From assembly GCF_000023825.1 (NCBI RefSeq), contig NC_013061.1, positions 4,774,001 to 4,838,000 on the forward strand: a stretch of DNA of 64,000 nucleotides, written 5' to 3'. The DNA comes from Pedobacter heparinus DSM 2366. GTDB taxonomy: Bacteria; Bacteroidota; Bacteroidia; Sphingobacteriales; Sphingobacteriaceae. Made by a program: the position numbers and the translations under genes. Under the pieces are notes generated by a model that ran no database searches, was not told the origin of the DNA, and saw only the letters and a list, made by a program, of their open reading frames with translations. Shown here piece by piece: positions 1 to 53,476 of the stretch (positions are counted from its first letter, which is position 1; every line of letters starts with the position of its first letter).

Positions 1-2922
1 GACTCCGTCATTGTTCAGGTCTTTATAGCGGATATATCCTGGTTTGATGACCTCTCTGGCCATCCCATTTGTCGGCACAGCATTTTTAAGGCGGTAACCG
101 CCATTGGGCAATTGATAAAAATCATCGTACTGATAAATCCCATCAAAGATGTACCCAACGAAATTACCTACTGAATGACCTATTGCTGCACTATACAATA
201 CCGGGTCAGCATATCCGGATTGCCATCTGGGTGTGATACTATTCAACAAGCGTTCCTCTTCATCAGCTAGTTGTAAAATGGTATTCCGGTTGAAGCTGAT
301 GTTAAAATTACTCCGCCAGGTAAAATCCCGCTTATTGATATTCACCGTATTCAAGGTAAATTCCAAACCCTCATTCTTTAATTTACCTACGTTTTTGTAG
401 GCACGGGCATACCCTGTGCTTGGCGACATATTGGCCAGCAGCAACAAATTGTCTGTTTTCTTTCGATATAGATCTACCACCAGCTCAATCCTGTTCTTCA
501 ATAAAGCTAAATCGTATCCTAAATTGAGCTGCGCAGTAGTTTCCCATCTTAATTTGGGATTGCCAATCGTAGGGATGGCTGCTGGTGTTGGCACCTCATT
601 CCCAAAAGAATAACCAGTAGAGTTGTCTACATTGATTGGTGAAAGCGCAGAAAAATCCCCTACTCTGTTGTTCCCGGTAAGGCCGTAACTCAAACGTAAT
701 TTGGCTTCTGTAATGGTTTCAATTCCTTTAAGAAAAGACTCTTCCTTCATTTTCCAGGCAAAAGCTCCTGATGGAAAGTAACCCCATTTGTTATTCGGAA
801 ATTTAGACGACCCGTCGGCCCTGAATGTTGCTGTGAACAGGTATCTGGATTGATACCCATAATTTACTCTGCTGAAATAAGATTGCAGGGTATTATAAGT
901 GCCGAAAGAGCCTACAGCCAGCGGCGTACCTTGCCCCAATCCGTCTATGCCCAAAGTCTCATTAGGAACTTTAATTGCTGTATAGTTATTTCCTTTGCTG
1001 CTTTCCTTTTGGAAACTAAAACCACCCAATACGTTTAAGGAATGAACCTTGTTTACCTTGCTATAGGTAAGGGTATTTTCGTTAGACCAGGTTGTGCGGC
1101 TGCTATAGGACATTGACCCCCACTGTCCATAGTTATTTCTAGGGCTTATGGGGCTACCTTCGCTCGTATTGGAGTTATAGAATGTACCCAATTGAATGGT
1201 ATTCAGGTTAATGGCACCGGTAGATTTGAAGACCAGATTATTAGTGATGTCATAATTAAAATACCCATTGGCAACCAGGTTATTGTTGTCCTTATTTCTG
1301 TAAACATTCTTTGCAGACTGCACCGGGTTGAAGCGGTAATCTGTAGTGCTGGTTACACCTTCATCAAAAAGTTCTTCTTCCAGATCTATGTCGCCTGTCA
1401 AATATCTGGCGTTAACTGGCCTGTATCCCCATACTGAATAAAGAAGCGCACTCGATGCATAGCCATCTTTTATAGAAGAAGCGATCTGGCCATAGGTCTG
1501 CGTGTGTGTATAATTTGTGCTCAGGCCAGCTTTCAATTTTTTGCTGACGTTCTGATCTGTAGTAATGCGTCCCTGTTGTTTCTTCAAACCCGTATTTACT
1601 ACCACAGAGCCGGTCTCAAACAAGGATCCTGAAATGGCATACCTGGTATCTTTATTCCCTCCCCGCAGTGATAAATTGTGAATATTGGTTACACCTTTGG
1701 TGAAGAACTGATCCTGCCAGTTGATCCCTTCCAGATTTTTATAGGAGTCATAGGTTACGCCGTCCGGGAGATACAGCGTCCTGGCAGTTACCGAATCCCG
1801 CTCAAATTCCAATTTAACAAACTCATAAGGACTTAATACCTCAACCCTTTTAGTCACATCCTGAAAACCGTAGGATCCTGAATAATTCAAATTGGGTTTA
1901 CCCACTTTACCCTTTTTTGTTTCTACAACAATGACACCATTTGCACCTCTGGAGCCGTAGATCGCAGTTCCGGAAGCATCTTTGAGCACATTTATGGATT
2001 CCACATCGTCAGGGTTCAACATAGAAAGATCAAAGTTCTCTGTTGCGAAGCCATCAATGACGTACAAAGGGGACGCATCCTGTGTGATGGAGCCCACTCC
2101 TCTGATCCGTATATTGATCCCTTCTTCTCCGGGCTGTCCCTGACTGGCAGAAACATTTAAACCAGCCACACGGCCCGCCAATGCCTGTTCTATAGAAGAC
2201 ACCGGAGCTTTAGTCATATCACGGATATTTACCTGCGCAACAGAACCTGTAAGATCAACTTTTCGTACGGATCCATATCCTACCACTAAAACCTCATCCA
2301 GTTTGCTGATCTGCGGTTTTAGTGTAACGTTAATGGTTTGTCTTCCTTCAACCCGCATTTCCCGGTCATCAAAACCGAGGTAGGTAAAAACCAGTATTGC
2401 ATTATCCGGAACCTCTATACTATAGCGTCCGTTCTTATCAGCAACTGCTTTTTTATCCCCACCTTTCATTCTTACGCCTGCGCCCTGCAATGGATTCCCC
2501 TCTTCATCATTGATCACACCTGAAACGCTGATATTTTTTCTAAGAGGTTGCATCATCACACTTGGCTTTATTTGAACAATGATAACGTTATTGTCAATCT
2601 TATAAGTTAAAGGCTGATTGGCAAATATTTGCGCTAAAACATCTTTAAAGTCGGCAGCTTTTACAGAAATGTCAACAGGCTTAGCCTGAGAGAGCGCATT
2701 GTCTGCATACACAAAATTATAGCCACTCTGAGTCCTTAGCACTTTTAGTACAGCACGTAAGTCTGCTTGTTTTTTTGAAATAGTAATTTTCTGTGCAAGG
2801 CCGGCAGCACTTACCTGCATCAGGGCAGCTATTAGTATTACGGTGGTTAATCGCATAATTAGCCAAATTTTACGGATATAAGAATTTATTATACCCAGGT
2901 TTGTGGTTATTTTTCTATACAT
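1..2922 (-). CDS. SusC-like TonB-dependent receptor with STN domain (3' end outside window)
   Basis: Outer-membrane importer of oligosaccharides or other large nutrients, powered by TonB. Only the first 974 codons lie in the window; the barrel's C-terminus is beyond the left edge. Seen in order: an extension of 22 residues, the signal sequence starting MRLTTVILIAALMQ, a secretin/TonB N-terminal (STN) domain at about residues 45-115, a carboxypeptidase-like beta-sandwich (GVINDEEGNPLQGAGV), the motif VLVVGYGSVRK, and the plug (NVLKDASGTAIYGSRGANGV). The ATG at 2922 is chosen because the other two STN-type SusC proteins here have the same 22-residue extension starting MY; the internal Met before RLTT is the alternative. 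STN domains receive FecR/sigma signalling, and those two genes lie just upstream. Substrate cannot be told from the sequence. Confidence 0.93.
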   Translation of the reverse strand, partial: MYRKITTNLGIINSYIRKIWLIMRLTTVILIAALMQVSAAGLAQKITISKKQADLRAVLKVLRTQSGYNFVYADNALSQAKPVDISVKAADFKDVLAQIFANQPLTYKIDNNVIIVQIKPSVMMQPLRKNISVSGVINDEEGNPLQGAGVRMKGGDKKAVADKNGRYSIEVPDNAILVFTYLGFDDREMRVEGRQTINVTLKPQISKLDEVLVVGYGSVRKVDLTGSVAQVNIRDMTKAPVSSIEQALAGRVAGLNVSASQGQPGEEGINIRIRGVGSITQDASPLYVIDGFATENFDLSMLNPDDVESINVLKDASGTAIYGSRGANGVIVVETKKGKVGKPNLNYSGSYGFQDVTKRVEVLSPYEFVKLEFERDSVTARTLYLPDGVTYDSYKNLEGINWQDQFFTKGVTNIHNLSLRGGNKDTRYAISGSLFETGSVVVNTGLKKQQGRITTDQNVSKKLKAGLSTNYTHTQTYGQIASSIKDGYASSALLYSVWGYRPVNARYLTGDIDLEEELFDEGVTSTTDYRFNPVQSAKNVYRNKDNNNLVANGYFNYDITNNLVFKSTGAINLNTIQLGTFYNSNTSEGSPISPRNNYGQWGSMSYSSRTTWSNENTLTYSKVNKVHSLNVLGGFSFQKESSKGNNYTAIKVPNETLGIDGLGQGTPLAVGSFGTYNTLQSYFSRVNYGYQSRYLFTATFRADGSSKFPNNKWGYFPSGAFAWKMKEESFLKGIETITEAKLRLSYGLTGNNRVGDFSALSPINVDNSTGYSFGNEVPTPAAIPTIGNPKLRWETTAQLNLGYDLALLKNRIELVVDLYRKKTDNLLLLANMSPSTGYARAYKNVGKLKNEGLEFTLNTVNINKRDFTWRSNFNISFNRNTILQLADEEERLLNSITPRWQSGYADPVLYSAAIGHSVGNFVGYIFDGIYQYDDFYQLPNGGYRLKNAVPTNGMAREVIKPGYIRYKDLNNDGV

Positions 2923-2933
2923 TTATATATTTG
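2900..2933 (+). promoter_or_regulatory. Candidate plus-strand promoter antisense to susC start
   Basis: TTTG at 2900-2903 and TATATTTG at 2926-2933, separated by 22 bases. This fits the Bacteroidota promoter pattern TTG-N17-23-TAnnTTTG. It points away from fecR's direction, so it would make RNA antisense to the susC leader. The region is AT-rich, so a chance match is possible. Confidence 0.45.
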
Positions 2934-2939
2934 GTTGTG

Positions 2940-3044
2940 CAGGAGCCTTTTGTTCTGAAGCGTCAGGCCACTGCGGGTTTAGTTTATTAAATTAAGCACC
3001 AAGTATTGACCAAGTTCCTGTTTCAGCAGGGATTTGGTTTTTTT
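2940..3044 (+). ncRNA. Candidate antisense small RNA opposite the susC leader (locus A)
   Basis: Predicted RNA of about 105 nt, from a start about 7 bases after the TATATTTG box to the end of the T-run at 3044. It lies wholly between susC (start 2922, minus) and fecR (stop 3055, minus), on the opposite strand. It would begin with a weak stem-loop at 2939-2974 (GCAG and GCC pairing with GGC and CTGC, with a two-base internal mismatch) and end with a strong terminator-like hairpin. Known: in Bacteroides, short cis-antisense RNAs such as DonS sit opposite the start of susC genes in sigma/anti-sigma controlled loci and repress them. That this is one is inference. Confidence 0.45.
3009..3044 (+). 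terminator. Rho-independent terminator-like hairpin, plus strand
   Basis: The arms ACCAAGTTCCTG (3009-3020) and CAGGGATTTGGT (3027-3038) pair over 12 bases with two G-U pairs and a six-base loop. A run of seven T follows at 3038-3044. The T-run is on the plus side only, so it would stop plus-strand RNA, yet no plus-strand gene lies upstream. That is why an antisense RNA is proposed. Confidence 0.6.
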
Positions 3045-3054
3045 GATATCCGTA

Positions 3055-4212
3055 CTATCTGCTTACCAAAATCTTCGTTCCTTCAATTTTAAATTTTACC
3101 TGTCCGGTTGATTCTAATGGCCGCAATACTTCAGACACATTGGCAAAACGGGATACCGAGCCACTAAATGTAGTTACAGGTAATTCACCCAGATATACTA
3201 TTTCTACATTATACCAGCGCGAGATCATGCGCATGATGTAGCGGATGTCATCCTGTTCAAAAACAAACTGATTGTTTTTCCAGGCTATAAACAATTCTGT
3301 GTCCACATGTTCAACTTTTATACGGGTACCATTAAGAGAGGATTGCTGGTTTGGTTTGAGTATGACCTCATTTACCTTTGCACTGCCCTCAACCAATGTA
3401 GTTTTCGTGCTATGCTCGTCCGCATAAGCATTGATGTTAAATTCAGTACCAATATCCTCTACAGTCTGCCCGGTGCTTTCCACTTTAAAAGGCATTTTTG
3501 AATTATGCACAACCACGAAATAAGCTTCACCGGTCAGTTTAACCCGCCGTTCGCCGCCCAAAAACTTACCCGGGAATTCAAGCTTACTGTCTGCATTTAA
3601 AAACACTTTGGTGCCATCAGGAAGGACAACCTGATAGGTTCCACCACGGGGAGTAGTGATGGTTGTCATTCCATTTAGCAGCCCTGGCGAAGAAGTATCC
3701 CCTTCCAAAGTAGTTCCATCACTATAGGTGATCTTACTCGCATCAATCACTACTCCGCTTTTCGCATCGCTTAGTTGCACGCTGCTGCCACCTGGTAAGG
3801 TAATTGTGGCTGTGTTTTTGCCGGGCTTAATGTCATTTTGATTCGCGATTTTTGAATTGCGATTTGCGACAGGGTTGCCGGCATAAAACCAAACGCCTGA
3901 GATTATCAAAGCTACAGCTGCCGCTATCGCCGCCAATTTTGGTAGTAACCTCAGCGTTTTAGGCTGATGGCTTGCTTGTAATAAATGATGATTGTAGATG
4001 TAGTTTAAAATAGTTTGTTTTTTTGTGGCATCCAATGCATTTTCGGGAACCTCCATTTCGTCACTAAATGCATCGGGAAAAAGCTGCATCAATTCCTGAT
4101 CGTTGTGAGAAGTAATGATATGCGACCATAGCTCTTCATTTTCCGTTTCGGTATTCAGGTTATTGAAATAGTTTTGTAGCAGGACTTGAATCCTCGCGTT
4201 TGATTTTTGCAT
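3055..4212 (-). CDS. FecR-family anti-sigma factor
   Basis: Inner-membrane regulator that holds the ECF sigma factor and releases it when the partner SusC signals through its STN domain. The 385-residue protein has a cytoplasmic N-terminal part, one transmembrane segment at about 90-110 (KLAAIAAAVALIISGVWFY), a FecR domain at about 180-275 (TTPRGGTYQVVLPDGTKV, then LTGEAYFVV) and a C-terminal DUF4974 domain (FEQDDIRYIMRMISRWYNVE). Order and length fit the family. It lies between the sigma gene upstream and susC downstream, the usual order for a trans-envelope signalling cassette. A spacer of 132 bases to susC holds the candidate antisense RNA. Confidence 0.93.
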   Translation of the reverse strand: MQKSNARIQVLLQNYFNNLNTETENEELWSHIITSHNDQELMQLFPDAFSDEMEVPENALDATKKQTILNYIYNHHLLQASHQPKTLRLLPKLAAIAAAVALIISGVWFYAGNPVANRNSKIANQNDIKPGKNTATITLPGGSSVQLSDAKSGVVIDASKITYSDGTTLEGDTSSPGLLNGMTTITTPRGGTYQVVLPDGTKVFLNADSKLEFPGKFLGGERRVKLTGEAYFVVVHNSKMPFKVESTGQTVEDIGTEFNINAYADEHSTKTTLVEGSAKVNEVILKPNQQSSLNGTRIKVEHVDTELFIAWKNNQFVFEQDDIRYIMRMISRWYNVEIVYLGELPVTTFSGSVSRFANVSEVLRPLESTGQVKFKIEGTKILVSR

Positions 4213-4333: not shown

Positions 4334-4924
4334 TTATTTAAATAGTACAGCAAATAGCGCCGGATAGGCTAGTGCATGTTTACTGAAGTGCTCACGTATG
4401 TGTTTTAAAGCCTGACGCATATGTGCCTGTACAGTACGGCTTGAAACGTTCATCTTTTTTGCAACTTCTTCATATTTCAATCCTTGTATATGGCAAAGGG
4501 TATATGCTGTTCGTTGCTGGGGACTTAAGTTTTCGACAGCCTGGGTCAATATCCTGTTACTTTCATTGTAATCTAGTATTTTATCTGTGGAATTGTCAGA
4601 TTCCAGAGTATTAATTTTAAGCTGTGTGGCCGATCTGGCATCTTGTGCCAATTTGCGTATCACGTTTATGGAATGGTTTCTTACTACCCGGTTTAGATAT
4701 GCCCCGAAATTTTTCACCTCGTTGAATTTTTCTCTGTTGAGCCATATTTTTAAGAATACATCTTGTACAATCTCACTCGCCTGATCTTCGGATTTAGTCA
4801 GCTTTCGGCCATAATCATATACATAACGCTGATAAAAATCAAAGATTTCCGTAAATGCACGCTGATCGCCCATGGCAATCCTGGCCAATAGTTCTTCTTC
4901 ATTTTTAAGTTGCCTGCTCTCCAT
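4334..4924 (-). CDS. ECF RNA polymerase sigma factor (locus A)
   Basis: Sigma-70 family factor of 196 residues that directs RNA polymerase to its target locus, here most likely the adjacent fecR-susC genes. Region 2 is seen at about residues 25-90 (FDFYQRYVYDYGRKL, then EIVQDVFLKIWLNREKF) and region 4 at about 130-180 (LSPQQRTAYTLCHIQGLKYEEVA, then the helix-turn-helix VSSRTVQAHMRQALK; both written here in part). It ends in a short hydrophobic tail, common in Bacteroidota members of this group. The start is an ATG at 4924. FecR follows 121 bases downstream on the same strand, which supports a sigma/anti-sigma pair. Confidence 0.93.
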   Translation of the reverse strand: MESRQLKNEEELLARIAMGDQRAFTEIFDFYQRYVYDYGRKLTKSEDQASEIVQDVFLKIWLNREKFNEVKNFGAYLNRVVRNHSINVIRKLAQDARSATQLKINTLESDNSTDKILDYNESNRILTQAVENLSPQQRTAYTLCHIQGLKYEEVAKKMNVSSRTVQAHMRQALKHIREHFSKHALAYPALFAVLFK

Positions 4925-5401: not shown

Positions 5402-5992
5402 TTAATTAATCCATAAATGACTGCTTGCAGAAACAGCAATGATCAGGATGCCGGAATCTTTCAAATTGGTTTTGATTACTTTGATCCCTTTGGTTAAATG
5501 TCCTTCAACCGTTTTTTCCGAAATATTCATCTCCTTTGCTATCTCTGGTATGGTCATACCTTCAACCCGGCTGTAATTAAATACCAGGCGGCATTTTTCT
5601 GGCAACAGCTCTACCTGCCCGTTAATATACTCCTGTAAAAACTTAGCTTCAAGCTTTTGTTCGTCATCTGCATAACTGTTCAGTTTATACTCCTTATGCT
5701 CAATATCCCTGCGCCTGCGTTCCCGCTCTATTTGCTTAAATATGGAGAACTTTACTGCCGTGGCCAGATAAGCTTTTAAGGTTTGGATCTCCAGTTTGTC
5801 CCTCCTGCTCCATACACCAACAAAAAGTTCCTGCACAATTTCCTGGGCAGCCGATTTATCTTTGGTATGGTTGTAGGCCATAGCCATCAACGTACTCCAA
5901 TAACGGTTGTAAATTTCCGTAAAAGCAGCATGATCCGCAGCCCTTAACAAAGCAATCAGTTCCTGATCGGTATATGTGCTGTAAGCACCCAT
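5402..5992 (-). CDS. ECF RNA polymerase sigma factor, orphan
   Basis: A 196-residue ECF sigma factor. Region 2 is seen early (AAFTEIYNRYWSTLMAMAY, AAQEIVQELFVGVWSRRDKL) and region 4 at the end (LLPEKCRLVFNYSRVEGMT, then ISEKTVEGHLTKGIKVIK). A hydrophobic tail follows. The ATG at 5992 is chosen over a TTG 24 bases upstream because region 2 follows at the usual distance and the bases AGGGA precede it. Unlike the other sigma factors in the window it has no FecR or SusC of its own; the next genes are a nuclease-like gene upstream and a sigma remnant downstream. Its targets may be elsewhere, or its cassette may have been lost. Confidence 0.88.
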   Translation of the reverse strand: MGAYSTYTDQELIALLRAADHAAFTEIYNRYWSTLMAMAYNHTKDKSAAQEIVQELFVGVWSRRDKLEIQTLKAYLATAVKFSIFKQIERERRRRDIEHKEYKLNSYADDEQKLEAKFLQEYINGQVELLPEKCRLVFNYSRVEGMTIPEIAKEMNISEKTVEGHLTKGIKVIKTNLKDSGILIIAVSASSHLWIN

Positions 5993-6132
5993 TTCCCTGT
6001 TGTGTTTAAACCTCAATAATAAGTTAGCTATAATTCCGAAAAAATCAAAACCGGATTATATTGTAAACTTATACATTTCAGCCAACGAAACCACACATTA
6101 TCAGATGAATAATTTAATTGTGGGTGTATGGG

Positions 6133-7086
6133 TTATAGCTTTTCTATTTCTGCTATAGGGAGCTTGGTAGTTTTAGCAATAAATTCAATAGTAAGGCCCT
6201 CTTTTTTTAGTTCCCTGGCAATTTCTAAAGCCTCCTCACGGCGGCCTTCCAGTTTTCCTTCTATTTTAGCTTCCTGTCTTTCCCACTTTTTAAAAACGTC
6301 AATAACTCCCATAGGATTTTTATCTTTAGTTAGTTCCTCGATCTGCTGATCAAATTTACGATTAATTTCTTCACTCTCAATAAAAATGAAGTTCTTAAGA
6401 AATAATATAAAACTGATAATCCGCTGGCGGTCATAACCATGACGCAGTAATGCCTTGACAATGACAAGCCTTTCATCAGCAAGTTCTTCATCCGGTATTT
6501 TACCTTCCAGCAATGCTTTCTGGCAGGCCAGAGCAATGAGGGAAAACGGGTTGTCGCTTTTTAACAGTTCATCTTCCTGATGATCGAAAACGTGGTATGC
6601 AGTATACTTAAATGAAAGTACTGTACCCAGCAATTCGTCAAGGTATTCCGTAGGCCTTAATTGCGTCTTTTTACCGGTAAATACTGCAATAGAGGCTACA
6701 GATACTTTATACTTATCTCTGATGCGGTAATTGTATTCAAATACCCGTTGGCCAAACTTACGATCATTACCACCCTCTATTTCTACATTCAATAGTACCC
6801 ACTTTTCTGTACCGTCTTTTAGATACAGTTTAGCTAAAAGATCTGCCCTGCGGCCCCCTCCTTTACGTTCCCTGTCTGGAATAATAGTGAACAGCTCATT
6901 ATTCAAAAATTCTATCTCTCTATTAAAATCCAATATTTCGTCGGCATCAGAGAATACAAAACGTAAGAAATCAGGAAAATTGTCTTCAAAAGCTCCTTTA
7001 AGAAACTCGTCATCCTTTCGGCGGGGCCTTTCTTCCTCATTGTTTAGCTCCTTTAACGGTATTACAGCTATTGTTTGCTTTTCCAT
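6133..7086 (-). CDS. Rpn-family PD-(D/E)XK nuclease / transposase-like protein
   Basis: A 317-residue protein of the Rpn (recombination-promoting nuclease) type, often annotated as a PD-(D/E)XK family transposase. The nuclease core is seen in the first 140 residues: FLKGAFEDNFPDFLRFVF, then RRADLLAKL with Asp82, then LLNVEIEGG with Glu102 and Glu104, then QRVFEYNYRIRDKY. The C-terminal third is helical, charged and rich in Lys and Glu, ending in a segment (GLTIEFIAKTTKLPIAEIEKL) that resembles a small helix-turn-helix. ATG 7086 is preferred over a TTG 27 bases upstream. Genes of this group are widespread, present in many copies and rarely flanked by inverted repeats; none were seen here. Whether it moves or cuts DNA is not shown. 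Confidence 0.8.
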   Translation of the reverse strand: MEKQTIAVIPLKELNNEEERPRRKDDEFLKGAFEDNFPDFLRFVFSDADEILDFNREIEFLNNELFTIIPDRERKGGGRRADLLAKLYLKDGTEKWVLLNVEIEGGNDRKFGQRVFEYNYRIRDKYKVSVASIAVFTGKKTQLRPTEYLDELLGTVLSFKYTAYHVFDHQEDELLKSDNPFSLIALACQKALLEGKIPDEELADERLVIVKALLRHGYDRQRIISFILFLKNFIFIESEEINRKFDQQIEELTKDKNPMGVIDVFKKWERQEAKIEGKLEGRREEALEIARELKKEGLTIEFIAKTTKLPIAEIEKL

Positions 7087-7252
7087 TTTTATTGGTCTGG
7101 TTTGTTTAAGCAAAAAAACATATCAATGGCCATGAAATCTGCATGAACACTCAACTCATTTCACTAAATTTTTGGGCTTTTGCCATATAATATTTGGCGA
7201 TGGGCATTTTGCAGGCGAAGCATTGATAAACGTTATTCCGGGCGTTTTTTTA

Positions 7253-8666: not shown

Positions 8667-11456
8667 TTACTCTTTGATGAACTGCTTCCGGATAACTTTG
8701 CCCTTATCGTAAATTCTCAGAAAATAATTGGGGCCATTTTGCAGCTCGCTTACCTCTACCGAATTCCCGGTCACCGTTTTATACTTACGGCCCCACAGGT
8801 CATAAACCTCAATTTTCGCGTCTTTAGAAACACCCTTAACTGTAAGTGTTGAAGTAGCAGGATTTGGATAAAGCATGATTTCATTGTTCTGCTGATCGGA
8901 TTTAGCCATAAGCGATCCATCGTTAACAATGTTATAAAAACCTGTATTCGTTTTCCCTTTTTCATCTCCGGAATACATAGACAGGTTGATGGCAGTTTCT
9001 CCGCCCGCATAAGATGTGCCGGCACCGGTTAAGTGCAGGTTAAGCGTAATGGTGATGTTGGAGCCGGTATACTCCGGATCTGAAACCGATATCCGGTAAT
9101 TTGTTGAATATTTCTTGACCTGCACTATCGCCTTTTTATCCGATTTGATCACCAGTCCATCTGGCATGGTTACCTGACCAGCACCATAGAAAACTGCAGC
9201 GTATTGCTTATTGGTGCCATTGTGGTAAATGGCCTGTACGGTAGAAGTGTTACTTGCAAGTTCGAATCCGTGATTGGCATAAAGTGTCGTCATGTCACCA
9301 GCAGACTTATTGGGTGCCACGATATAATAATAGGTACGGTTGGTTGGCGTAGGGCTGTGTCTTACGTAAAGGTTGAACATTTGGTTGGTAACACTGCCGG
9401 TGCCCCCGCCCAGACTTGCCCAGGTACCCGTTTGAGATTTATTTGTAAGCGAAAAGTACCCACCATTAGGAAACAGATATCCTACCTGTCCATGGTTCAC
9501 CCAGTTTAGTTTATTGGTTGTGAGCGAATCGCCCGAGAAGGTATAGGTAGAACCATCGTCCCGAATGGTAATGGCCCCGTCCAACTTGGTCTGATTGACA
9601 GTTGTTACTATTTCGTTCGATTTTGATGCGGTAATGCTATTGCCAACACACACCATCATGTTCTCCAGCAAGAAATAGGCTTTATTTGCGGTAACCCCCC
9701 TTTTGTTGTCCTGCTGAAAGGCGATGATCCCTACTTCGTTGACCGAAAGACCACCCCCATAGACATTGGAGGCAGTCACATAACCATCTACCGTTCCAAA
9801 GGTGGTTGATGCGGCTGCCTCATTCATTTCGGACGTAGTACCAGGAATACGCGACCAATTCCAACTCGGAAAAATGTTATCATATTCGTTGCCGGTAACC
9901 AGGATATTAGTTGCACCGAAAGGCAAATTCCAGCCTTTTAAATTTGTCCCCTTAATGGCCTCTGCACCTGTATTACGTGAAGAAGTAATCTTTGCGGACA
10001 TATAGAAATTCGCTCCCCGACTGACCACCATATTGGATAGCCAAAAATGTTTCGCCCTTGAAAATGGGAATGCAGCTCCAGCCAGATGCGCCTTCCAGCT
10101 CTGATAAGACGCATTGTTTACGGGATCATTTACAGCTTGTGTATCCAATAAACCTGCAGAGATCTTATTTAAAAGACTATTGGCACCACTAACCGACCTC
10201 CCAATAATTCCAAAGTCCAGCGTGTTGCGGTAGCTGAGATTGCGAAGGCCACCTAATATCACTCCCCTAAGGTTGTTTTTATAAGTTGTCGTATAAATTG
10301 AATTGAAACTGGTTCCCGCAGCGATATTGAGATACTTCACCTCATCATCTACGAATATCATTCCATAGCTGCCTGTTTGGATTTGGGTTCGATGCTGGTG
10401 GAAACTGCTATCTATCCGGATGCCCTCGGCTATGCTCATATTGGCAATATTTAACCCATTAACCATACTCTGGTAACCTTTCGTAACCGTTTTATAACTG
10501 TCCATCACCAATCCCTTTCGTATCATCGTTGTAGAAACCCAAGATCGGTTGGCACCTCTGTGATCAGGATTATCGGTTTGGTCAACTACAGTTGCCGCAT
10601 AAGTCATAAGAGAATCGTTTGGTATCGCTCCTCTCATCAGCAGCAAAGCCGACACCACATTATTCGGCGAACGTATTTCATTATCATGCCAGTTAGATGA
10701 CACGTAATTAGCATTGATAAAGTGTCTCATGGCCAACATAAATTTGGCAGGTACATCAGGATGATTATACAAAACATTGGACGGATTGCGATAAGCCTGT
10801 GCCAGGCGATTTAGCCAAAGTGTATGTCGCGGCCAATTGTCACCAGTATAATTTACACCAGGCCATTGTCCATTAGGCAACATCGTTGTAAGGAAAAAGG
10901 TAAGATCCTGCTTTTCCTGCTTCGAGTATTGGCTGATTAGCCTGCCGGCAACAGTATCCATATCTGCCTGTTGGCTACTGGTCGGATCCCCATCCCCATA
11001 AACCTTAAAATCTGAAATCCGATACCCGGCCGTATTTGCCCTGCCGCGTCCGTTAAACCTGATATACCTATACCAACCATAGGTTCCGTTTATAGTGAGC
11101 AGGGAAAGGCTGTTAGTGGGTGGAATTGTTTTTAGTGTATTCCAGGTTATTCCATTTGTTGAACCCTGGATATCAAAAGTTACGGCATATCGTCCGTCGG
11201 CAAATTGAATAACAACATGGTCTATATCCCGAATACTCCCGAGGTCTACCGTAAGTGTCTGGATATAACCATTAGAAGTTGATGACCAGTAAGTGGCCGT
11301 ATTGTTATCCACGGCGTTAGCAGCGAAGTAGGAACCTTCTGTTGTAGATGCCGATGCCGGTTTATTCAGCGACAGCAATGTTTGCGCAGCCGCGCCAAAA
11401 GCAATGCCAAAAATCGGGAGCATGGCAAGGAGCAGAGATCGTAAATTTAGTTTCAT
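8667..11456 (-). CDS. PL8 polysaccharide lyase with discoidin and type IX sorting domains
   Basis: Secreted lyase that would cleave a uronic-acid-containing polymer by beta-elimination. The 929-residue protein has a signal peptide (1-24), an F5/8 type C (discoidin) carbohydrate-binding domain at about 26-155, the alpha/alpha toroid of PL8 at about 165-480, the central beta domain (NIFPSWNWSRIPGTTSEM), and a C-terminal type IX sorting domain (MLYPNPATSTLTVKG to the final RKQFIKE). Catalytic-type residues are visible: Asn in NWHDNEIRSPNN, His353 in SSFHQH, Tyr364 in TGSYG, and Arg in FGIIGRS. PL8 includes hyaluronate, chondroitin AC and xanthan lyases; which polymer is cut here is not shown. 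The sorting domain suggests display or release outside the cell. Confidence 0.9.
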   Translation of the reverse strand: MKLNLRSLLLAMLPIFGIAFGAAAQTLLSLNKPASASTTEGSYFAANAVDNNTATYWSSTSNGYIQTLTVDLGSIRDIDHVVIQFADGRYAVTFDIQGSTNGITWNTLKTIPPTNSLSLLTINGTYGWYRYIRFNGRGRANTAGYRISDFKVYGDGDPTSSQQADMDTVAGRLISQYSKQEKQDLTFFLTTMLPNGQWPGVNYTGDNWPRHTLWLNRLAQAYRNPSNVLYNHPDVPAKFMLAMRHFINANYVSSNWHDNEIRSPNNVVSALLLMRGAIPNDSLMTYAATVVDQTDNPDHRGANRSWVSTTMIRKGLVMDSYKTVTKGYQSMVNGLNIANMSIAEGIRIDSSFHQHRTQIQTGSYGMIFVDDEVKYLNIAAGTSFNSIYTTTYKNNLRGVILGGLRNLSYRNTLDFGIIGRSVSGANSLLNKISAGLLDTQAVNDPVNNASYQSWKAHLAGAAFPFSRAKHFWLSNMVVSRGANFYMSAKITSSRNTGAEAIKGTNLKGWNLPFGATNILVTGNEYDNIFPSWNWSRIPGTTSEMNEAAASTTFGTVDGYVTASNVYGGGLSVNEVGIIAFQQDNKRGVTANKAYFLLENMMVCVGNSITASKSNEIVTTVNQTKLDGAITIRDDGSTYTFSGDSLTTNKLNWVNHGQVGYLFPNGGYFSLTNKSQTGTWASLGGGTGSVTNQMFNLYVRHSPTPTNRTYYYIVAPNKSAGDMTTLYANHGFELASNTSTVQAIYHNGTNKQYAAVFYGAGQVTMPDGLVIKSDKKAIVQVKKYSTNYRISVSDPEYTGSNITITLNLHLTGAGTSYAGGETAINLSMYSGDEKGKTNTGFYNIVNDGSLMAKSDQQNNEIMLYPNPATSTLTVKGVSKDAKIEVYDLWGRKYKTVTGNSVEVSELQNGPNYFLRIYDKGKVIRKQFIKE

Positions 11457-42700: not shown

Positions 42701-43031
42701 CCCTGATGGCATACGTTAAATTTAATCCTCTCAGGCTTTGGTTTAGCACTTCGGTTACCGGCACATTTCTAAAATTAGCGGTAATCACTGTATGGGTATT
42801 GATGTCCTGTTCCGGCCATACTACATGATAGCCCGTCTGGGCCTTTATTTCCTTAAACAGCTGGAGTAATGTGGTGCTTTTACGAACGTAATTCAGCTTC
42901 TGACCAAAACCGGAAGCACTTACCTGAAGCATCGATGCGATTAAAATTACGGTGGTCAGTCGCATAATCAATAGAATCTTATAGATATGCCTTTTCCGCA
43001 TATCCGGATTATTGGTATAAAATATATACAT
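39702..43031 (-). CDS. SusC-like TonB-dependent receptor with STN domain (locus D)
   Basis: A 1109-residue outer-membrane importer. It has the 22-residue extension beginning MYIFYTNN, then the signal MRLTTVILIASMLQVSASGF, an STN domain at about 48-120 (LLQLFKEIKAQTGYHVVWPE), a carboxypeptidase-like domain (GRVVDDRDEPLLGAIVKVKG), a variant of the VGYG segment (EINAGYYTVKNKVRTGAI), the plug (VLKDADATAIYGSRGANGVV) and the barrel. The STN domain and the upstream FecR and sigma genes make it a signalling receptor. In the usual SusC position the motif GYG is replaced by GYYTVK. A later Met (residue 11 or 23) could also be the start. Confidence 0.93.
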   Translation of the reverse strand: MYIFYTNNPDMRKRHIYKILLIMRLTTVILIASMLQVSASGFGQKLNYVRKSTTLLQLFKEIKAQTGYHVVWPEQDINTHTVITANFRNVPVTEVLNQSLRGLNLTYAIRGRTIVIKAINPSLIDKAKLILDSVHDFFLSIDVQGRVVDDRDEPLLGAIVKVKGSTMATSTNAVGNFELKQVPENAILLVSYLGFETKEIKAEKSLGTIKLILAIDDLKEVEINAGYYTVKNKVRTGAISRVSDEIIAAQPVGNPLTALTGRMAGVNIAQSSGVAGGNVNVEIRGRNSLRSDARDPLYLVDGVPYPSAPLTNNSMGVSILAGSSPLNYLNPLDIESIEVLKDADATAIYGSRGANGVVLIKTKSARNGKTEVGFNIYTGISKVSTILDLLNTSQYLEMRNEAFKNDGISPGLTDYDLNGSWDQHRYTDWQDVLIGGTAQLTNISASINGGNEFTQVAFRSNYNRQSTVFPGNFADQKGSASLTAGHASLNKKFKANFSSSYLLDNNNLPRVDLTNHILLAPNAPEPYTDNGDLNWAYNSTGAATWTNPMAAIRNVYQGRSVSFMSSAVLSYEPVRGLIIKSNLGYTNIRLRENLLNPVKAGNPATASLGSNYLSNNTIETWIAEPQLIWNPKVFKGRLEILLGSTFQKDDQKTEAVVGTGYTNDLLLKSISAAPTKTGTSSGSQYKYNALFARLNYNHQDKYILNLTARRDGSSRFGPGKQFANFGAVGAAWIFSEEKAFRSSLPFLSFGKFRASYGLTGSDKIGDYGFLDTYSASQPYQGGAGLTPTRLANPDYAWENNKKLEAAVDMGFLRDKLFFTISWYRNLSSNQLVGYSLPDITGFTSIQYNLPAVVQNTGLEFELNTSNVSGRNFTWKTAFNLTVPRNELVSYPNIAGSAYASAYTVGQSLYTPIGYHYLGVDPQNGLYTFEDLDGNGNDLDEADKKTADKGLESHAFGGLQNSFTYKSFQLDVFFQFVSKTARNPISLYGIPGAMGNQSAEVMERWQKQGDERSVQKFSQSLVADGPGLRFYYTLSSDYFSDASFIRLKNVSFSWNVPADWSRRLRLKGLKLYLQGQNLFTLTKYKGDPEVLNIKSLPSLTTLTAGIQVSL

Positions 43032-43051
43032 TTGTTTAGTCTGTAAATTTG
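43027..43051 (+). promoter_or_regulatory. Plus-strand TAnnTTTG boxes at the start of susC (locus D)
   Basis: TACATTTG at 43027-43034 and TAAATTTG at 43044-43051 are both exact TAnnTTTG matches on the plus strand. No TTG is at the ideal distance; one at 43012-43014 is 12 bases from the first box and 29 from the second. The first box contains the reverse of the susC start codon. Confidence 0.3.
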
Positions 43052-43098
43052 TAAATTGATGTAATAGATTCGCTTTTATTTCATAGCAATACAGGCAT

Positions 43099-43126
43099 GA
43101 GCCAGAAGAGTCGAGACTTCTGGCTC
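43099..43126. other. Hairpin in the fecR-susC spacer (locus D)
   Basis: GAGCCAGAAG (43099-43108) pairs perfectly with CTTCTGGCTC (43117-43126) around an eight-base loop. It lies in the same place as the terminator-like hairpins of loci A and E but has no direct T-run on either strand. It could end an antisense RNA inefficiently, or be a feature of the susC leader. Confidence 0.45.
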
Positions 43127-43154
43127 TGTTGTGTATTACCGTTTTTATGTCTGT

Positions 43155-52700: not shown

Positions 52701-53378
52701 TTTGATTTTTTGGTAGCCCGTGTTGACTGTTACCGCAACTTCTTCCAGGTTTGCAACGGCAATATCCATCCTTATTGTTCCAAGGTCTTTTGAGGCTACA
52801 ATCTCCCTGGTTTTATACCCGGTGTAACTAATGACCAGTATTGTCCCTTCTTCAACATTTTGCAAAAGAAACGTACCATCTGTACCGGCCCTGGCAATTT
52901 GTCTTTTTCCTTTGACCATTACACTAGCTCCCGGTAAGGCATGACCGGTACTGTCTACCACGCGGCCACGTACATCAATATTCGCAAACGCAGCCCTGAT
53001 GTTATCCATAAAAGAAGGTTTTACCGGTTCTATTACGATGATCTTTCCTTCAATGGTATACTTCAGATTTAGACCCTTAAGTACAATGTCCATGGTTTCT
53101 TCAAGAGTAGCGTTCTGTACAGAAACATCGATAGATTTCGTTTTGTCCATTAGCTTTCTTTCCATAATCACGTCATAGCCGCTTTGCGTGCGGATAGCTT
53201 TTAAGATCTTTTCGAGTGGTGCTTTACGCTCATTTAAAATAATCCGTTGAGCAAAACCTGCAGCACTTACCTGCATTAAGGATGCTATTAAAATTATGGT
53301 GGTTAACCGCATAATAAATAATATTCTATCGACATACCGCAAGGGTACACCAAGTTTGTTAGTATAAATTTTATACAT
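49764..53378 (-). CDS. SusC-like TonB-dependent receptor with STN domain (locus E)
   Basis: A 1204-residue importer, the largest complete SusC in the window. It has the 22-residue extension beginning MYKIYTNK, the signal MRLTTIILIASLMQVSAAGF, an STN domain at about 50-125 (EKILKAIRTQSGYDVIMERK), a carboxypeptidase-like domain (GRVVDSTGHALPGASVMVKG), then a plug that differs in detail (ILKDAASATVYGVRASNGVI, with GVRASNG for the more usual GSRGANG), and the barrel. Signalling type, with FecR upstream and its sigma gene divergent. Confidence 0.93.
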   Translation of the reverse strand: MYKIYTNKLGVPLRYVDRILFIMRLTTIILIASLMQVSAAGFAQRIILNERKAPLEKILKAIRTQSGYDVIMERKLMDKTKSIDVSVQNATLEETMDIVLKGLNLKYTIEGKIIVIEPVKPSFMDNIRAAFANIDVRGRVVDSTGHALPGASVMVKGKRQIARAGTDGTFLLQNVEEGTILVISYTGYKTREIVASKDLGTIRMDIAVANLEEVAVTVNTGYQKIKPEQSTGAVSQIGTKEYESRVSSNFLDGLVNRLPGLLINNSVQFTSTAPGAISSTSRPLFNIRGISTMSANQSPLIVVDGYPTELTLDMIDPNEIKSVTILKDAASATVYGVRASNGVIIIERKQATPGAAQFNFRTTLGITPEENYSRYRWDPEASGINANYVRERQSLIITPGSWGLLFAPGIPNGGNVRRSIPFYIQAQLAAGIITPAQAESSFAELANYDNLDDYSRLFQRTAIAQTNTLNISGGVPNALYYITANYTGNRSNAVLNDNNRFQLTGRTTLKLAKRLSLELTTEYQENRVNGAPVPGAASYAGYERYEDVNGNPAAIISQSYAPVYNSFILSQGLLDQNYYPLIEANKVSNKTRTLNNKTIANFNYDIGKGFNLLFGGVYETSRTEFRHLAAQGSNEVNSFVNNYTVTPTAANPALAFKRNLPDGDFLRQQNATSTGYTARTQLNYNKRMGNHSLNGIAGAEIRRVLNKSNLASYFGYNDQSLLHQPVDYASIFNGVTGTSGTLVTGNGLGLLENYFNQGYDDDRYVSAFSNVVYSFKDTYSLSGSIRIDQSNLFGSDPKYKYKPLWSLGAAWNIHKEDFMSNFNWLHQLKLRGAYGFNGNVAKLSLPQVIAQSRNNNANTPTLPSLVLFSNANTGLRWEQTENLNLGLDFNVFKNITGSFEYYTKKTTDVMGNSSIDPTLGANSALINYASIRNNGLEFSLKADWISTRDFNWNTGIVVAKNSSKVLDVYRTGQYNPQVLDVLGYVSGYPVGAMFSYDTRGLNNEGHPIIYDQNGASYVVNTSSTGTPLVTAMSDKNSGLVQYSGTSVPTISGGLSNRVDVGNFYFFAMINYYGGFKVRVPRPTPAENRPLPGSNDYWRVAGDELKTNIPNLTDLNSSAPGLAYRYNSNYVVHGDYMTLGDVTVSYRLNDLKFMKNVGFKNFELKAQASNLYSVGFNRYNFSMATGSYAKSYLTPTYTLGLFTNF

Positions 53379-53381
53379 TTG
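53374..53381 (+). promoter_or_regulatory. Candidate plus-strand promoter box antisense to susC start (locus E)
   Basis: TACATTTG on the plus strand, an exact TAnnTTTG match, with TTTG at 53355-53358 only 15 bases upstream (slightly short). The 17 bases 53374-53390 differ at one position from 43027-43043 in locus D, so the box sits in a conserved stretch. Confidence 0.4.
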
Positions 53382-53387
53382 TTAAGT

Positions 53388-53476
53388 CTGGTTATTAAGT
53401 TGATACACTGAAAATTTTATTGACGTAATGCCTGATATGAGCCGGGAGTGTAGCGAGCACCCTGGCTTTCTTTTTT
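53388..53476 (+). ncRNA. Candidate antisense small RNA opposite the susC leader (locus E)
   Basis: Predicted RNA of about 90 nt, from just after the TACATTTG box to the T-run at 53476. It lies in the 122-base spacer between susC and fecR, on the opposite strand, like the candidate of locus A. No plus-strand reading frame of note lies in it. It is a prediction from promoter box and terminator alone. Confidence 0.42.
53440..53476 (+). terminator. Rho-independent terminator-like hairpin, plus strand (locus E)
   Basis: AGCCGGGAGTG (53440-53450) pairs with CACCCTGGCT (53458-53467): ten pairs including one G-U, with one bulged A and a seven-base loop. The bases TTTCTTTTTT follow at 53467-53476. 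The T-run is on the plus strand, so it would stop plus-strand, antisense RNA. Confidence 0.55.

Follow-up and report, generated by a model that had tools for sequence, protein, structure and literature searches.

What does the plus strand encode between fecR and susC in a sugar-uptake locus of Pedobacter heparinus DSM 2366? We analysed a window of 64 kb (the whole stretch of DNA considered here, positions 4774001-4838000 of the contig), which begins within a susC gene that is preceded by genes coding for an anti-sigma factor and a sigma factor:

1-2922, extending past the window edge, minus strand: SusC/RagA family outer-membrane receptor, the target gene (open reading frame; start codon 2922-2920)
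3055-4212, minus strand: FecR-type anti-sigma factor (Pfam FecR and FecR_C; stop codon 3055-3057)
4334-4924, minus strand: ECF sigma factor of the FecI type (Pfam Sigma70_r2, Sigma70_r4_2 and Sigma70_ECF)

The target SusC protein matches Pfam STN, CarbopepD_reg_2 and Plug as well as TIGR04056, and a spacer of 132 nt separates fecR from susC. The initial annotation had interpreted the plus strand of this spacer as an antisense RNA gene, and we find this reading to be largely right, with its observation confirmed and its interpretation supported. TTTG at 2900-2903, 22 bases, TATATTTG at 2926-2933, another 76 bases, a hairpin and seven T are all present letter for letter, and it also holds that no protein gene on the plus strand explains these signals, as the list of open reading frames contains none of more than 30 codons overlapping 2900-3044 on that strand. 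The locus very probably encodes a short RNA from the strand opposite susC. Further along the minus strand lie a second ECF sigma factor gene (5402-6016), which is located about 480 bases upstream of fecI and has no adjoining FecR gene, a 326-aa open reading frame without a Pfam match (6133-7113) between this sigma factor gene and the lyase region, and a gene for a polysaccharide lyase family 8 protein with an F5/8 C domain and a Por secretion tail (8667-11456). The nearby lyase gene is a hint to the substrate of the locus, a clue rather than evidence.

The predicted gene and its signals are as follows, with the model and alignments (R1, A2 and A4) described below:

2929-3044, plus strand: predicted antisense RNA gene of about 115 nt, start at 2929-2930 (R1 match, A2 and A4, covariation)
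2918-2925, plus strand: likely -7 box TACATTTA, aligning with TACATTTG of relatives and overlapping the complement of the susC start codon
2926-2933, plus strand: alternative -7 box TATATTTG, the box of the initial annotation, overlapping the 5' strand of the closing stem P1
2900-2903, plus strand: TTTG, initially proposed as the -33 element, probably incidental and not conserved
3008-3039 (hairpin) and 3038-3044 (run of seven T), plus strand: intrinsic terminator (RNAfold, shuffles; helices 3 and 4 of A4)

The terminator hairpin contains 14 pairs in RNAfold, which is compatible with the 12 pairs and six-base loop described initially, and no plus-strand site of this kind in the window is stronger. 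Among 1000 dinucleotide-shuffled spacers, nine contained a terminator of -15 kcal/mol or lower and none reached -18.5 kcal/mol, and the RNA from 2940 to 3044 (105 nt) folds with a z-score of -4.8. The promoter box at the locus is weak when taken alone, as such boxes are frequent in shuffled sequences: TAnnTTTG was found in 250 of 1000 shuffles and TTTG-N18-23-TAnnTTTG in 23 of 1000 (2.3%). A scan for sigma-70 promoters performed at chance level, the sigma-70 consensus being wrong for this phylum. The occurrence of the box in 25% of shuffles could be taken to mean that the whole arrangement arose by chance and has no function, but the family, control and covariation results presented below, which also rescue the box, argue so strongly against this that we regard a chance arrangement as practically negligible.

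To place the locus among its paralogues, the surroundings of the 47 FecR genes outside SusC that a FecR_C search retrieved from the same genome were compared, and the 38 spacers of 40-320 nt between fecR and the next large open reading frame were counted. An antisense terminator is present in 34 of these 38 fecR-susC spacers and a sense terminator in one, and 29 of the 38 carry TAnnTTTG on the antisense strand near the susC start. Control susC genes of the same genome without an annotated fecR partner have antisense terminators in 5, sense terminators in 2 and boxes in 3 of 36 cases (antisense terminators 34/38 versus 5/36, Fisher p 3e-11). One of the five control terminators belongs to L123, whose SusC has an STN-type start and whose RNA falls into the sub-family of the locus studied here, and strong antisense terminators also occur at L097 and L121, where susC has an MQNF-type start and no annotated fecR. 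The feature is mostly missing where the spacer is below about 60 nt. At L080 and L055, where the first ATG was taken as the susC start, the antisense terminator is unusually near it; the actual start codon is probably another one.

Most of the boxes overlap the complement of the susC start codon or are located 2-3 bases beside it, and part of the -7 box is also constrained by the start codon and early codons of susC. However, the offset of the box from the start codon differs between loci (-2, +2, +6), as do the two bases in its middle, and the start-codon context alone is therefore insufficient to explain it. In alignment A2, TACATT (columns 12-17) is invariant in all 23 sequences, and at our locus the conserved box is lacking its final G. 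According to the family alignment, the likely box is TACATTTA, 8 bases upstream of the initially proposed TATATTTG; a matching TATATTTG is also found in the aligned loci L011, L012, L013 and L015. The proposed role of TTTG as a -33 promoter element did not hold up, since it is not conserved among the paralogues, and no conserved -33 element was detected in 26 aligned promoters of the same genome. When words were searched for signs of a susC promoter on the sense strand, TTAACCAA and TATCAACT proved enriched, but no promoter could be assigned.

With a mean identity of 34%, the RNAs of this genome were too divergent for a single alignment, and the sub-family of the locus was therefore modelled instead. 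It aligns along the whole RNA and consists of L043, L044, L054, L058, L060, L073, L123 and the locus itself; together with relatives from other Pedobacter genomes, it gave the 23 sequences of alignment A2 and of covariance model R1. At the locus, R1 matches positions 2907-3047 with 86.6 bits and an E-value of 5.4e-13, a score that is partly obtained by construction, since the locus itself is among the 23 sequences. R1 matches all three fecR-susC spacers of the window, the other two being:

53363-53475, plus strand: paralogous antisense RNA gene, promoter included (R1 61.2 bits, E 1.1e-8; fecR-susC spacer L069)
43016-43133, plus strand: paralogous antisense RNA gene, promoter included, with a weak T-tail (R1 44.8 bits, E 6.7e-6; third fecR-susC spacer, L040)

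Matches to R1 were obtained at 29 of 48 fecR-associated loci of the genome, with loci devoid of a susC spacer among the non-matching ones, and 15 copies reach E <= 0.001, while none of the 35 upstream regions of fecR-less susC genes is matched. At the same cut-off, 57 of 79 Pedobacter genomes contain matches to R1, and a single genome can have as many as 20. The matches elsewhere are located opposite a susC start in 29 of 29 loci checked, and a FecR-sized open reading frame ends 122-266 nt upstream in all of these except one, which lies at a contig edge. The sequence family was detected in Pedobacter and, with weak signals, in near relatives; a search over 198 genomes of the phylum with strict filters and 15 candidates scored per genome retrieved only the P. 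heparinus genome, which is weak evidence of absence. No Rfam 15 family matches the window at its gathering cut-off, and at the locus only sub-threshold chance matches were seen.

The predicted RNA folds into two helices ahead of the terminator:

2929-2934, plus strand: 5' arm of the closing stem P1, AUUUGG (paired to 2999-3004; helix 1 of A4)
2999-3004, plus strand: P1 closing stem, 3' arm CCAAGU (fold and covariation)
2939-2974, plus strand: P2 stem-loop (GCAG 2939-2942 with CUGC 2971-2974, GCC 2945-2947 with GGC 2966-2968)

Alignment A4, an independent MAFFT alignment of 41 RNAs that each start after the box, supports P1 (GUUUGG at the 5' end with CCAAAC just before the terminator), P2 (GCAG/CUGC and the inner GCC/GGC) and the terminator. 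In this alignment, 91.8% of cells are paired and 16 of 23 pairs have changed on both sides, among them three of the six pairs of P1 and four of the seven pairs of P2 (helix 2), which is also part of the minimum free energy fold. None of 500 shuffles reached any of the covariation measures, and slid controls were 34-49% paired. The palindromic UUCGAA loop of P2, considered as a possible kissing site, is found in 19 of the 41 sequences, is absent at this locus and was discarded.

Which strand carries the structured product can be judged from the type of mismatch tolerated. The count of G-U versus A-C among pairs predicted from both strands is 63 to 17, with consensus energies of -39.3 for the antisense strand and -26.8 for the sense strand. 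A strand-symmetric hairpin search gave a G-U to A-C ratio of 72:5 in terminator stems overall (39:3 in the same genome, 20:1 in other Sphingobacteriaceae and 13:1 in Bacteroides), and it found T-rich tails only on the antisense side, with T at 182 of 270 flanking positions there versus A at 82 of 270 on the other flank. The G-U bias, the energies and the T-tails indicate that the structured product is the plus-strand, antisense RNA. They also bear on the idea that the hairpin is a sense-strand structure of the susC leader or the fecR end, transcribed from the minus strand. The stem can form in the complementary strand too, and it adjoins the fecR stop codon; with 34 antisense terminators to a single sense one, in addition to the tails, wobbles and energies, we consider this very unlikely.

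The fold also informs the position of the RNA start. Most often, and in 16 of the loci of this genome and other Sphingobacteriaceae for which a closing stem was scored, the stem begins 4-5 nt past the -7 box, even though sequence upstream of the expected start was also offered to the fold. As the -7 box spans positions -12 to -5 relative to the transcription start (PMC9723704), the stem begins where transcription should start. Single-locus shuffles produce such closing stems by chance in about 40% of cases, and it is therefore only the family-level signal that is strong. At our locus, P1 begins inside TATATTTG and the conserved box is aligned to TACATTTA, from which we place the start probably at 2929-2930, giving an RNA of about 115 nt. 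Use of TATATTTG, the remaining alternative, would move the start to about 2938 and shorten the RNA to about 107 nt, so that box and terminator together predict a length of about 107-116 nt. The initially proposed RNA of about 105 nt at 2940-3044 is hence correct in size and strand, but judged by the family alignment and P1, its start is probably 8 bases earlier.

Given the layout, the terminator, the conserved promoter box, the antisense-strand structure and the near-exclusive link to fecR-susC pairs, all of which are features of the sequence itself, it is likely that the locus is a structured antisense RNA gene of about 115 nt, predicted to act as a DonS-like cis repressor of susC. We infer transcription of the RNA, its pairing with the mRNA and the repression of susC, as well as a susC mRNA that covers the region. 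A housekeeping promoter, the -7 box of which overlaps the susC start codon, would read away from susC, and transcription would end at the intrinsic terminator shortly before it reaches the fecR stop codon. The resulting RNA would be exactly complementary to its own susC leader from about -8 to -122 relative to the start codon; as initially claimed, it would thus be antisense to the leader upstream of the start codon, but it would not cover the start codon itself. Pairing would require the susC or fecR-susC mRNA to span this region, and a susC mRNA with a start on the downstream side of the RNA gene would offer little to pair with. Most likely, pairing with the leader would block translation start or destabilise the mRNA, and the uptake operon would be held off until sense transcription becomes sufficient, driven by the ECF sigma factor that FecR releases upon signalling through the SusC STN domain.

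One might speculate that the RNA product is irrelevant and that susC transcription is instead disturbed by divergent housekeeping transcription or by a promoter occupied over the susC start, through collision of promoters and polymerases. The location of the box on the susC start codon and the occupation of the whole spacer by the RNA gene would suit such a mechanism, and the mechanism of DonS itself is given as unknown in PMC11697453. However, the compensatory changes in all helices and the G-U wobbles on the antisense strand argue that the RNA product is under selection, which makes transcriptional interference on its own unlikely. A point against our main reading is the extensive structure of the RNA, which includes the 5' end and sets it apart from sRNAs that have an open seed. 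This same property weighs on a further idea, namely that the RNAs form a trans-acting, FopS-like family in which each member represses several susC genes via shared sequences. FopS represses several SusC genes in B. thetaiotaomicron (PMC11697453), the 15 copies found with R1 would provide such a family, and a TTAACCAAAC-type sequence near the start is common to susC leaders. Yet each RNA is fully complementary to its own leader only, and the 5' part is base-paired, whereas the 5' seed of FopS is single-stranded; we therefore give a trans-acting family little credence, though a trans role and a cis role would be compatible with each other.

Orthologous SusC proteins with 81% and 77% identity are encoded in two other genera, Paradesertivirga and Parapedobacter (L124 and L125), and no close SusC besides the protein itself was found in 145 genomes of the same genus at E 1e-290 among the five candidates scored per genome. 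Conservation of box and hairpin in relatives that keep susC was the observation on which the initial annotation had staked its reading, and both of these relatives keep a start box and an antisense terminator, the hairpin letters of which differ from those of our locus. In comparison to both relatives, SusC identity is about 15-60% per 25-residue block before residue 222-225 or so and about 90% thereafter, a jump that coincides with the beginning of the Plug domain. FecR is only 38-39% identical to its counterparts in the two relatives, and like SusC residues 1-220 and the RNA, it is similar to Pedobacter cassettes. The ECF sigma factor, FecR, the antisense RNA and the STN end may accordingly constitute a unit distinct from the SusC transporter body. 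Tentatively, and with somewhat more doubt than confidence, we raise the possibility that the antisense RNA gene belongs permanently to a regulatory cassette which different SusC bodies acquire or exchange, in which case each cassette would bring its own RNA brake. Fast divergence of the same unit would give a similar identity pattern.

Antisense RNAs of polysaccharide utilization loci (PULs) have been described in Bacteroides, and this layer seems to be standard in the soil relative Pedobacter too. If the RNAs are transcribed, nearly every susC gene under sigma/anti-sigma control in soil Pedobacter would be subject to the same brake, a single covarying RNA family without an Rfam entry would be present in those 57 Pedobacter genomes, and a general layer of glycan-uptake control would exist in a large part of the phylum. 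R1 is a model with which these RNAs can be annotated, and the occurrence of an antisense RNA at fecR-susC pairs would represent a clear genome-wide rule, which raises the question why ECF-controlled susC genes bear the brake and others do not.

The same layout is found beyond Pedobacter. With one FecR examined per genome, other Sphingobacteriaceae have antisense terminators in 20 and a sense terminator in 1 of 27 cases, and the fecR-susC spacers of three Bacteroides species have them in 14 and 1 of 22 cases, respectively, with TATCTTTG or TATATTTG immediately beside the start codon. In other families of the class, where most fecR genes abut the next gene, antisense terminators are present in 5 of 11 cases versus sense terminators in 3 of 11, and the layout is rare or absent there. 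We found no description of such RNAs in Pedobacter in the literature searched, mostly open-access papers.

Among known systems, FopS and GibS (PMC11697453) share with the RNA described here that they are short RNAs with terminators and many paralogues per genome, and FopS represses susC-led operons. However, FopS and GibS are trans-acting, 65-70 nt long and mostly intergenic with a single-stranded 5' seed, whereas the RNA of our locus is about 115 nt long and cis-antisense, with a 5' end that is paired and supported by covariation, and we do not assign it to this group. The DonS-like RNAs of Bacteroides, attributed to Cao et al. 2016 in PMC7366714, PMC10994844 and PMC11697453, are a closer parallel. 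According to PMC7366714 and PMC10994844, they are cis-antisense RNAs of 78-128 nt that are divergent to susC and lower its expression, and 10, later 32, PUL-associated antisense RNAs are reported for B. thetaiotaomicron. The DonS-like place and direction suggested initially are borne out, and size and neighbours match too: the predicted RNA lies on the opposite strand, divergent to susC and over or next to its 5' end, and its length of 107-116 nt falls within the range given in PMC7366714. Like the DonS-like RNAs, it would have its own housekeeping-type TAnnTTTG promoter, with the box present at the family level and as TACATTTA or TATATTTG at the locus, and it ends in an intrinsic terminator, which is strong here. 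At the sequence level, R1 gave one marginal and unconvincing match in the Bacteroides loci (E 0.7). The Pedobacter RNAs come from a different order, the Sphingobacteriales, and their sub-family has its own conserved P1/P2 structure, whereas the arrangement of a box at the susC start followed by a terminator is the same in the fecR-susC spacers of Bacteroides.
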